From NCBI GenBank assembly GCA_016936255.1, contig JAFGYE010000116.1, forward strand, positions 1 to 64,000: a stretch of DNA of 64,000 nt. Direction: 5' to 3'. This document shows positions 47,992 through 61,713 of the stretch, in pieces; position 1 is the first letter of the stretch, and each line of letters starts with the position of its first letter. The DNA is from Marinifilaceae bacterium. GTDB taxonomy: Bacteria; Bacteroidota; Bacteroidia; Bacteroidales; Marinifilaceae. The notes below the pieces were generated by a model. The model was not told the DNA's origin and searched no databases. It saw only the letters and a program-made list of their open reading frames with translations. A program made the position numbers and the translations under genes.

Positions 47992-48261
47992 ATGGATATA
48001 TTATTGGATCAAGGTTGGAGCGAAATTGACAGTAAATTGGTTAAAAATTATGAACTCCCAAACTTCATTGAGGCGATAAATTTTATAAACTTAGTGGCTT
48101 CAGAAGCTGAAAACATGAATCATCATCCAGATATTAAACTGTACAATTACAAAAATGTACGCCTAATTTTAACCACTCACTCCAAGGGTAAAATCACAAA
48201 AAAAGACATTATCCTTGCCAAAAGCATCGACAAAATATTTGACTCGATGAAAGTCTTTTAG
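47992..48261 (+). CDS. Pterin-4a-carbinolamine dehydratase
   Basis: An 89-residue PCD-fold protein. The active-site signature ENMNHHPDIKLYNYKNV and the segment LILTTHSKGKITKKDI are present. Family members dehydrate 4a-hydroxytetrahydrobiopterin after aromatic amino-acid hydroxylases or serve in molybdopterin or folate-related roles. No phenylalanine hydroxylase is in the window. Its stop overlaps the convergent pheA stop by 3-4 bp, an intimate tail-to-tail arrangement of two genes tied to phenylalanine. Confidence 0.9.
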   Translation: MDILLDQGWSEIDSKLVKNYELPNFIEAINFINLVASEAENMNHHPDIKLYNYKNVRLILTTHSKGKITKKDIILAKSIDKIFDSMKVF

Positions 48262-49097
48262 GTGATCACAATACCTTTGTTATAAGTACCCAATACTTGC
48301 ATTCCTTTCGTATAGTCTGATATTTTATCTAAGGCATTCCTAAACTGCCTTGGCCCCTGAAATTCCAAATCGACATGAAAAAAGTATTGCCAATTGATAC
48401 CCGGAATTGGTAAAGATTGAATCTTCGAAAGATTAATGTTCTCCTTGGCAAAACAATCCAAAATATAAGACAAGCTCCCCGGTTTATGACTGGTACTAAA
48501 GTATAGTGATGCTTTATTGTACCCTCCGTTTGGAACAACATCTTTCTTTCTCTTTAAAACAAAAAAACGGGTTTGATTGTCTTTTATGCTTTCAATTTCC
48601 TCAGCTATAATTTCCAATCCATACAATTCTGCCGGATAATCACCGGCAATAGCTCCCACACCCATCAATTGATTGTTTCTTACATTCTTCGCACTTAAGG
48701 CCGTATCCTCCATTTCCACCAATTTAATATTTGGATGATCGTGAAAGAAAGCACGACACTGATGAATTGCCATTGGATGAGAATGAACCTCTTTTAAATC
48801 TTCAATTTTTTGCCCGGGCAAAGCCATTAAATTTTGCTTAATTCTCAAAAATATCTCCCCTTCAATTACAAGACCGGAATCCTGAAGAAGCCCGTAATTC
48901 TGAAGAATACTTCCGGCAATAGAATTTTCAATCGCCATTATTCCACCATCGCATACCGATTCATCCTGTATTAATTCAACAAGTGTGGCGAAATTACCGG
49001 CAGGAATAATTTCAACATCTTCTCCGTAATAGGCATTGGCAGCCAAATGGTGAAAACACCCCTCAACTCCTTGAATTACAATTTTTCTTTTCTTCAT
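48258..49097 (-). CDS. pheA: Prephenate dehydratase
   Basis: A 279-residue monofunctional prephenate dehydratase converting prephenate to phenylpyruvate for Phe synthesis. The catalytic part (1-185) contains IQGVEGCFHHLAA, the family TRF motif in DNQTRFFVL and ENSIAGSIL. The C-terminal ACT domain (about 195-279; KPGSLSYILDCFAKENINLSKIQSLPI) should bind Phe for feedback inhibition. ATG at 49097 was chosen; an upstream start at 49121 would fall in the leader terminator. No chorismate mutase domain and no linked shikimate genes. The upstream region carries two Phe-rich leader peptides with terminators, so expression is probably controlled by attenuation. Confidence 0.95.
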   Translation of the reverse strand: MKKRKIVIQGVEGCFHHLAANAYYGEDVEIIPAGNFATLVELIQDESVCDGGIMAIENSIAGSILQNYGLLQDSGLVIEGEIFLRIKQNLMALPGQKIEDLKEVHSHPMAIHQCRAFFHDHPNIKLVEMEDTALSAKNVRNNQLMGVGAIAGDYPAELYGLEIIAEEIESIKDNQTRFFVLKRKKDVVPNGGYNKASLYFSTSHKPGSLSYILDCFAKENINLSKIQSLPIPGINWQYFFHVDLEFQGPRQFRNALDKISDYTKGMQVLGTYNKGIVIT

Positions 49098-49120
49098 GGT
49101 TATAGTTAGATTTTGTATCA

Positions 49121-49151
49121 CAAAAAAGAGTCCCGATTAATCAGGACCCTT
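49121..49151 (-). terminator. Attenuator terminator 2, in the pheA leader
   Basis: Minus-strand hairpin with 11 paired positions, including G-U pairs (arms within 49140-49150 and 49127-49137), followed by TTTTTT (A-run at 49122-49127). It lies between leader peptide 2 and the pheA ATG, 24 bp before the start codon. Confidence 0.75.
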
Positions 49152-49188
49152 TGTGAATAATATTACATTTTATTTCATAGGAATCCTG
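49142..49188 (-). promoter_or_regulatory. Candidate antiterminator pairing 2
   Basis: CAGGATTC (49181-49188, inside the leader-2 ORF, downstream of its Phe codons) can pair over 8 positions (two G-U) with GGGTCCTG (49142-49149), the left arm of terminator 2. The two structures are mutually exclusive, as an attenuator requires. Confidence 0.6.
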
Positions 49189-49250
49189 TTCTTCTCTCCG
49201 CTAAAAAAGAAAAAAATAAAAAACCAACTCTTAAAAAATACTGTTTTCAT
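49170..49250 (-). CDS. Phe-rich leader peptide 2 of pheA
   Basis: A 26-codon ORF (ATG at 49250, TAA at 49170-49172), too short for standard gene calling. Eight codons are Phe, arranged FFKSWFFIFFFF at residues 5-16. A ribosome stalled there for lack of charged tRNA-Phe would leave CAGGATTC free to sequester the terminator's left arm. A ribosome reaching the stop would cover it and allow termination. It has an A-rich translation start region like other genes here. Conservation of the peptide was not tested. Confidence 0.65.
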   Translation of the reverse strand: MKTVFFKSWFFIFFFFSGEKNRIPMK

Positions 49251-49272
49251 CTGTTTATAATTTTAAGTTTTT

Positions 49273-49338
49273 GTCAGATGGAACTTACCATATAATCATT
49301 TCCCTGTGTGTAGAAAGCTTTATACATGGACATTTCAT
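49273..49338 (-). repeat. Dispersed leader element, copy A
   Basis: Reading on the minus strand, it begins ATGAAATGTCC, has a central ACACACAGGGAAATGATTAT and ends GGTAAGTTCCATCTGAC. The following A/T-rich stretch leads to the ATG of leader peptide 2. The ends match copies B, C and D. Confidence 0.7.
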
Positions 49339-49375
49339 GTGTTTATAATTTGATTTTTAATTACCATATAGCCTG

Positions 49376-49394
49376 TCCCGAACTTGTTTCGGGA
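49376..49394. repeat. Short inverted repeat between copies A and B
   Basis: TCCCGAA/TTCGGGA (49376-49382 with 49388-49394), 5-nt loop. This GC-richer hairpin resembles common Bacteroidetes interspersed palindromes. Confidence 0.5.
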
Positions 49395-49459
49395 GAACTT
49401 ACCATTCTGAGATAATCATCCCTCTGTGTGTCAAAATCGCTTTGATATGGACGTTTCAT
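49393..49459 (-). repeat. Dispersed leader element, copy B
   Basis: On the minus strand it begins ATGAAACGTCC, has ACACACAGAGGGATGATTAT centrally and ends ATGGTAAGTTC. It is in direct orientation with copy A, about 55 bp upstream of it in the transcript, just after the U-run of attenuator terminator 1. Confidence 0.7.
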
Positions 49460-49465
49460 ATAGTC

Positions 49466-49492
49466 AAAAAAAAAGAGCCCTTACAGAGGCTC
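49466..49492 (-). terminator. Attenuator terminator 1, in the pheA leader
   Basis: Minus-strand hairpin GAGCC/GGCTC (49488-49492 with 49475-49479, plus inner partial pairs) followed by nine T (A-run 49466-49474). The sequence AGAGG at 49518-49522, just after the leader-1 stop, can pair with CCTCT at 49485-49489 of its left side, giving a possible antiterminator. Confidence 0.65.
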
Positions 49493-49523
49493 ATCATCAA
49501 TTAAATAGTACGTGAATCCTCTT

Positions 49524-49577
49524 CTAACAACAACTGCTAAAAAAGAAAAATCGCCCGATATGCATATTATTACTCAT
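49524..49577 (-). CDS. Phe-rich leader peptide 1 of pheA
   Basis: A 17-codon ORF reading MSNNMHIGRFFFFSSCC (ATG at 49577, TAG at 49524-49526). Four consecutive Phe codons lie just before the stop. The DNA around the Phe run and the downstream AGGATTC resembles the corresponding part of leader 2, so the two attenuators probably arose by duplication. Confidence 0.6.
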   Translation of the reverse strand: MSNNMHIGRFFFFSSCC

Positions 49578-49598
49578 ACTTTCTGTACTAATTCTTTT

Positions 49599-49606
49599 CA
49601 AAGGTA
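49599..49606 (-). promoter_or_regulatory. Candidate pheA promoter -7 box
   Basis: TACCTTTG on the minus strand matches TAnnTTTG. It lies 21 bp upstream of the leader-1 ATG, so a transcript from here would contain both leaders. A TTG occurs about 15 bp upstream of the box, closer than usual. Confidence 0.5.
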
Positions 49607-49818
49607 AAAAAATATTTCATACAACCTGAGAATTATCATACTCATGCAGGCAGCAATGCCGTTAAACCTCTCAATGTTATGATATGACTGCTGGTAATTC
49701 TTCTCAATACCTATCTTTTTTATTGATTCTAATTTTTAACAGATCAATAACAACCACCCCTGTACTTTCTCAACCAATAGTAGTATATTTAATACTTCAA
49801 TGTCTTTATATATCGGAA

Positions 49819-61614: not shown

Positions 61615-61689
61615 ATGAAACGTCCGTAAGTAAATAATTATCAACTCACAATGGGGGTAATTGTTTGCAAACGGTAAGTTCCATGTGAC
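61615..61689 (+). repeat. Dispersed leader element, copy C
   Basis: Begins ATGAAACGTCC, has a central ACAATGGGGGTAATT and ends GGTAAGTTCCATGTGAC. The following AAAAATCAAATTATAAACAC, shared with the segment just upstream of copy A, leads directly to the ATG of the ispD-like gene at 61714. Confidence 0.65.
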
Positions 61690-61713
61690 AAATAAAAATC
61701 AAATTATAAACAC

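Follow-up and report, generated by a model that had tools for sequence, protein, structure and literature searches.

Two candidate leader-peptide attenuators in series upstream of pheA in Labilibaculum, and related tandem leaders in aromatic operons of Bacteroidota

Leader-peptide attenuation of amino acid genes is textbook knowledge, drawn mainly from Proteobacteria and Actinobacteria. Enterobacterial pheA is preceded by a leader peptide rich in Phe codons, with mutually exclusive antiterminator and terminator structures, and the enzyme it encodes also has a chorismate mutase domain. In other phyla the attenuators of amino acid genes are often T-boxes. For the taxonomic scope of amino acid attenuation, the available portion of PMC4833913 may be compared. 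The Salmonella mgtCBR leader has two short regulatory ORFs that answer to different signals, ATP and proline; in the portion of that paper available, its authors contrast this leader with the metE leader, which has two terminators, and state that nutrient biosynthesis genes are normally under a single attenuator (PMC3641672). Within Bacteroidota, the accessible text on Flavobacterium psychrophilum reports a structured 5' element before pheA that is conserved in other Flavobacteriaceae, a 5' element before hisG, and clues to leader peptides before amino acid operons (PMC9723704), and the accessible text on Bacteroides thetaiotaomicron describes long 5' UTRs with small ORFs reminiscent of attenuation leaders (PMC7366714). 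We found no description of tandem Phe/Tyr leaders in Bacteroidota in the open-access literature.

During our analysis of a 64,000-nt contig stretch (hereafter the window), we assigned it to Labilibaculum, which we take to be a genus of the Marinifilaceae, Bacteroidales, as its pheA and the L. euxinus gene share 97% identity. Sequence comparison and folding indicated that the 5' leader of this pheA very probably carries two full transcription attenuators of the leader-peptide type, one after the other, both served by one promoter. Read 5' to 3' on the minus strand, a box matching TAnnTTTG, presumably the -7 promoter consensus of Bacteroidota, was followed by leader 1, terminator 1, an interspersed repeat, leader 2, terminator 2 and pheA (Table 1). 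A preliminary description had placed two Phe-rich leader ORFs between the box and pheA, each with a terminator and a competing antiterminator; these are present at the bases it gave, and all of its coordinates for box, leaders, hairpins and pairing segments agreed with the sequence.

Table 1. Features of the pheA leader region, with positions in the window
Feature	Position	Strand	Evidence or remark
Putative promoter -7 box TACCTTTG, TAnnTTTG type of Bacteroidota	49599..49606	minus	sole TAnnTTTG on this strand within 49091-49640
Leader ORF 1, MSNNMHIGRFFFFSSCC then stop, four consecutive Phe codons	49524..49577	minus	RFFFF core in clade loci
AGAGG, antiterminator segment for attenuator 1, complementary to CCTCT in hairpin 1	49518..49522	minus	sequence, folding
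Intrinsic terminator 1, hairpin GAGCCTCTGTAAGGGCTC (49475-49492) and T9 (49466-49474)	49466..49492	minus	-8.1 kcal/mol; kept in relatives
Interspersed repeat unit 1, 121 bp, starting ATGAAACG	49339..49459	minus	absent in L013, L014, L016-L019
Interspersed repeat unit 2, 88 bp, ending at the leader 2 ATG	49251..49338	minus	repeat matches
Leader ORF 2, MKTVFFKSWFFIFFFFSGEKNRIPMK then stop, eight Phe codons	49170..49250	minus	sequence, alignment of relatives
Antiterminator segment of attenuator 2, CAGGATTC	49181..49188	minus	invariant in 13-sequence alignment
Intrinsic terminator 2, hairpin at about 49126-49151 and T-run to 49121	49121..49151	minus	-14.4 kcal/mol
pheA, prephenate dehydratase, ATG at 49097	48258..49097	minus	PF00800, E 1.6e-51

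The end-product codon runs of the two short ORFs (FFFF and FF..FF.FFFF) were conserved, and the aromatic codons of both leaders were for Phe, with one Trp in addition in leader 2. Intrinsic terminators were recognized between leader ORF and gene both by sequence and by folding, and the antiterminator segment of attenuator 2 (49188-49181) could form 8 bp with GGGTCCTG, two of them G-U. The leader 2 region and the terminator 2 stretch folded more stably than most shuffles (z -3.33, with 1/200 shuffles as stable, and z -3.00, with 2/200), while the leader 1 region gave z -1.29 (23/200) and the terminator 1 stretch alone z 0.27 (117/200). Folding energy alone was less striking than the excess of called attenuators over shuffled sequences described below. 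The window pheA is convergent with a gene for pterin-4a-carbinolamine dehydratase, and no aspC, aroG or tyrA was found downstream of it.

The preliminary description had named as its check the presence of Phe codons, hairpins and U-runs at this site in related genomes, and this came out in its favor: both leaders and both terminators were present in all ten clade loci whose upstream sequence was complete (L009-L014 and L016-L019, of which L009 is the window's own; L015 was cut by a contig end). L013 was a partial exception, having ATA in place of the leader 2 ATG, with a GTG three codons further, and a weaker second hairpin. Among the most constant positions were the Phe cores and CAGGATTC (alignments, 13/14 collected loci). 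By eye on the alignment, the AGAGG:CCTCT pairing of attenuator 1 was replaced by AAAGG:CCTTT in L017 and L018, and G-U intermediates of this antiterminator pair were seen, also by eye, in L019, L039 and L041. In L013, L014 and L016-L019 leader 2 started at most about 15 nt after the T-run of terminator 1, leaving no space for a second promoter.

In the window the gates are 209 bp apart, and we realized that this gap (49251-49459), whose nature the preliminary description had not mentioned, is made of two units of an interspersed repeat that begin with ATGAAA and end with TTATAAACAG or TTATAAACAC. There were at least 46 matches to this repeat in the window's genome, itself included, a lower bound as the count came from 40 scored candidates; a second site lies inside the window at 61615-61713. 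Matches were also present in all seven other Labilibaculum genomes searched, with weaker ones in some further Bacteroidales, and we found no description of the family in the open-access literature. A 14-base pattern scan of viral contigs returned 58 stretches. The right end was ATGAA in 30/30 copies read, the repeat query itself having ended in ATGAAA and 45/46 matches reaching its last or last-but-one base. These 30 copies comprised three inner array units and 27 array ends, and the ends opened an ORF of 86 codons or more in 25 cases, leader 2 in one and a 19-codon ORF in one. At one of the 25 (L216) the ATG is no gene start but lies within an interrupted gene, at a Met-Lys pair, and the corresponding place is uninterrupted in two genomes (G002 and G005). 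Repeat-free sites in relatives, for instance before what we take to be a pyrF-like gene (G001, G004), before a gene whose product begins MKKKIAIPV (G004) and within the L216 gene (G002, G005), join exactly at the ATG, which suggests that the repeat inserts at ATGAA(A) and leaves that sequence on both sides. At the pheA locus, the four repeat-occupied genomes carried different units. In this species group the repeat thus parts the gates and puts new sequence, free of any TAnnTTTG box, ahead of leader 2. We had considered the long gap as a part of the design, and ruled this out because it is a repeat insertion and because the sites in L013, L014 and L016-L019 are compact.

Our searches for pheA gave matches in 68 of 148 genomes from the order and in 102 of 118 from the phylum. 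We analyzed the 68 order matches, 24 of the phylum matches and nine more family members, giving 101 loci with the window included (100 fetched regions of 105 listed, plus the window); setting aside L119, L153 and L159, which had little upstream sequence, left 98. Attenuators were called as a leader ORF with at least four (or at least five) aromatic codons in eight, followed by an intrinsic terminator at a distance of 20-150 (or 20-140) nt. With at least four of eight, an attenuator was called in 83/98 loci against 11/980 dinucleotide shuffles, and with at least five of eight in 84/98 against 4/980; two attenuators were called in 16/98 and 12/98 loci, respectively, against 0/980 shuffles. The same caller run on the real sequences with other residue groups gave 2 to 20 of 98 loci, the 20 being for Lys/Asn/Glu. 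The union of both callers comprised 101 attenuators, with at least one in 85/98 pheA loci; among the 13 loci called by neither, L144, L168 and L182 had a leader visible by eye. Aromatic runs were nearly all that the leader peptides of the 85 loci had in common. On a contig binned as Calditrichota (L047), a Phe/Tyr leader (MICQITTIRFSYFYFYFFAPNYRGIRRCVAA followed by a stop) and a terminator precede pheA, which indicates either spread beyond Bacteroidota or a misbinned contig.

The two-gate layout is thus wider than the window pheA, occurring in 20/98 pheA loci, five of them added by inspection, as well as before the tyrA-aroG operon described below. This tally takes the 16 loci called, minus L155 (where the units overlap), plus L133, L163 and L176-L178, these five all having been two-attenuator calls in a looser first-pass caller; L176-L178 are the same loci as L017-L019, and their first leaders were read from the sequence. 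L124, L147 and L161 were left out, as their second hairpins were about -7 kcal/mol, even though the looser caller had called two units in each. By sample, tandem units were present in 12/65 loci of the order, 2/24 of the class and phylum and 6/9 of the family, the family sample being enriched for the window's own clade. On a quick maximum-likelihood pheA tree the tandem state required at least 11 changes.

We infer stalling, termination, Phe dependence and multiplied repression by the two gates along the following lines. When charged tRNA-Phe is ample, a ribosome would cross the Phe codons to the stop and mask the antiterminator segment; the terminator hairpin would then form. When it is scarce, the ribosome would stall on the Phe codons, and the antiterminator segment would pair with the terminator 5' arm before the 3' arm exists, letting the polymerase continue. 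RNA polymerase would reach pheA only after passing both gates. The pairing logic is borne out by comparison and folding. The terminator 5' arm paired with its own upstream segment at a mean of -12.5 kcal/mol, against -8.1 (sd 0.24, 2000 permutations) with the segments of other loci; attenuator 1 of the window ranked poorly in this mismatched-arm test (0.66) owing to its short hairpin arm. The antiterminator segment began a median of 13 nt past the last aromatic codon, and given the size of its footprint, a ribosome stalled on the aromatic codons ends about where this segment starts.

We folded the nascent RNA as it would be before the terminator 3' arm exists, with the ribosome either on the aromatic codons or at the stop codon. 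The 5' arm was sequestered by upstream sequence with a mean of 0.78 in the stalled state and 0.15 with the ribosome at the stop, and this switch, an exclusive antiterminator set by ribosome position, was seen in 98/101 attenuators, both window units included, versus 175/505 with a shuffled spacer. Equilibrium folding was mixed, with a terminator gain of more than 0.2 in 41/101 attenuators. In the window it switched attenuator 1 (terminator probability 0.07 stalled and 0.95 at the stop) and showed no switch for attenuator 2 (0.94 versus 0.95), which would thus need kinetic antitermination. The leader folding proposed in the preliminary description therefore bore out both units when done on nascent RNA, but only attenuator 1 at equilibrium.

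A TAnnTTTG box stood ahead of the first leader in 56/85 loci, compared with 2/85 in a control stretch. Between the gates no such box was found in the 15 tandem loci retained from the caller, the window included, where the spacers were 13-224 nt, so both gates are seemingly on one transcript.

Downstream of pheA, on the same strand and within about 4.5 kb, aspC, aroG or tyrA was present in 75 of the 85 loci with a called leader. All 75 had Tyr codons in their called leaders (mean Tyr/(Phe+Tyr) 0.42-0.43), whereas among the ten lone pheA loci, six of the window's clade and four others (L135, L142, L156 and L164), Tyr codons were missing from the called leaders of seven, and the Tyr share averaged 0.04. 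For L176-L178 the second leader alone was called for this count; the first leader of L177 (L018), MTNYIYTKRFFFFSSRC followed by a stop, has two Tyr codons before its Phe run, and counting it leaves 6/10 lone pheA loci without Tyr. With a cut-off of 0.2 in Tyr share, 12 loci were low, two of them not lone pheA. A tree test of Tyr against operon content found 4/4 independent pairs in agreement in most pairings, which is too few for significance (p 0.125). By these comparisons, the codons of the leaders track the content of the operon.

This pattern predicted Tyr leaders at the split-off tyrA-aroG genes of Labilibaculum, and such leaders were found: an aspC-tyrA-aroG-aroB-aroA operon (gene names from similarity) has MKTFSTYFYYFWYFCYPQR and MTDSGLAFRYYYFYFWYNNDRAGCLIPNSK upstream, both ending at a stop and both with a terminator-like hairpin and T-run behind them (read by eye), so that these leaders are tandem as well. 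Tandem Tyr/Phe/Trp leaders before aspC (L297-L302) were present, in similar form, in 6/6 Labilibaculum genomes read out of eight, and their mix of Tyr, Phe and Trp codons suits an operon with DAHP synthase. The aspC-tyrA-aroG operon and trpE are divergent. By eye, trpE in the window's genome (L318, G000:C73:49854-50291) has one Trp leader (MIGMNSKYWWWHNYKLSKPEQR then stop) with a WWW run and then a terminator, and hisG (L309, G000:C72:84370-84834) one His leader (MKFTAIHHHHHYTYQPVS then stop) with an HHHHH run and then a terminator; over the 360 nt inspected both are single, not tandem. Comparison thus gives good support to Phe attenuation by ribosome stalling with two gates on one transcript, as the preliminary description had proposed, through the conservation, the fit of the antiterminators, the one upstream box, the codon-operon match and the sister-operon prediction.

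Attenuator 2 could instead be the sole regulator, with attenuator 1 either vestigial or just a partial terminator, uncoupled by the repeat insertion. We consider this unlikely: although the hairpin of attenuator 1 is weak (-8.1 kcal/mol), its Phe codons are only four and the 209 bp repeat separates the gates in the window's genome, both Labilibaculum and Marinifilum retain its core, antiterminator and terminator, with the compensatory change in L017 and L018, attenuator 1 is the better switcher of the window's two units in equilibrium folding, and the repeat carries no promoter box. A variant that keeps attenuation at both gates has them respond at different levels of tRNA-Phe charging, given their four and eight Phe codons, so that the response would be graded rather than, as the preliminary description had suggested, sharpened. 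The window and L174-L178, where leader 1 falls short of leader 2 both in Phe codons and in hairpin strength, are consistent with such grading, but in other tandem loci (e.g., L107, L134 and L141) both leaders have similar aromatic content, and we regard it as possible though doubtful.

Readings in which the small ORFs do not serve as ribosome-stalling leaders appear much less probable. That they encode functional peptides, the hairpins being ordinary terminators or stability elements, has a precedent in a trans-acting leader peptide, as reported in the available portion of PMC7298713; it is nevertheless highly improbable here, as the peptides of the 85 loci share little but their aromatic runs, and these change with operon content. 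Least probable of all is a T-box or riboswitch sensing tRNA-Phe or phenylalanine directly. T-boxes are frequent attenuators before amino acid genes in other phyla, but no Rfam family scored above threshold in the window, T-box was absent even from a permissive list for 49090-49620, and the best weak match of the region was Phe_leader (RF01859), at attenuator 2, with 23.6 bits (E 0.13) against a gathering score of 55.

Two attenuators in series thus remain our preferred reading for the window pheA. More broadly, we lean towards a view in which serial same-signal attenuation recurs in aromatic operons of Bacteroidota, with a second attenuator repeatedly gained or lost at pheA and present also before tyrA-aroG; the leaders would serve as amino-acid "addresses", rewritten as operons split or reshuffle, and two gates would multiply repression. 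On this view, attenuation lies ahead of pheA in the majority of 98 sampled loci of a further major phylum and takes an unusual two-gate form in about one-fifth of them, and the near absence of Tyr codons from the leader where pheA lies apart from tyrA and aroG amounts to a natural experiment. Tandem attenuators with a single signal also offer a testable case for what a second like gate brings, whether lower leak, a steeper response or graded thresholds.

Among the closest described systems, the window pheA shares with the enterobacterial Phe leader a leader of Phe codons and an exclusive antiterminator and terminator before pheA; it differs in having two units in series and in its enzyme, in which only the PDT domain was found, in contrast to the enterobacterial enzyme with its additional chorismate mutase. 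The hisG and trpE leaders of the window's own genome share the codon run followed by an intrinsic terminator, but are single. With mgtCBR the window pheA shares two regulatory ORFs in one leader, behind one promoter box; to judge from the available text on mgtCBR, it differs in that both gates are for Phe by codon content, not for different signals, and each has its own terminator (PMC3641672). The F. psychrophilum text, in the portion available, holds no leader sequence, tandem arrangement or analysis of codons against operons such as was done for the window (PMC9723704), and the B. thetaiotaomicron example, in the portion available, concerns a hypothetical gene that has several small ORFs, and no aromatic operon is named (PMC7366714). 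We found neither the serial same-signal form nor the operon-matched codons in the open-access literature; leader-peptide attenuation itself is classic, and what appears to be new is its serial, same-signal form.
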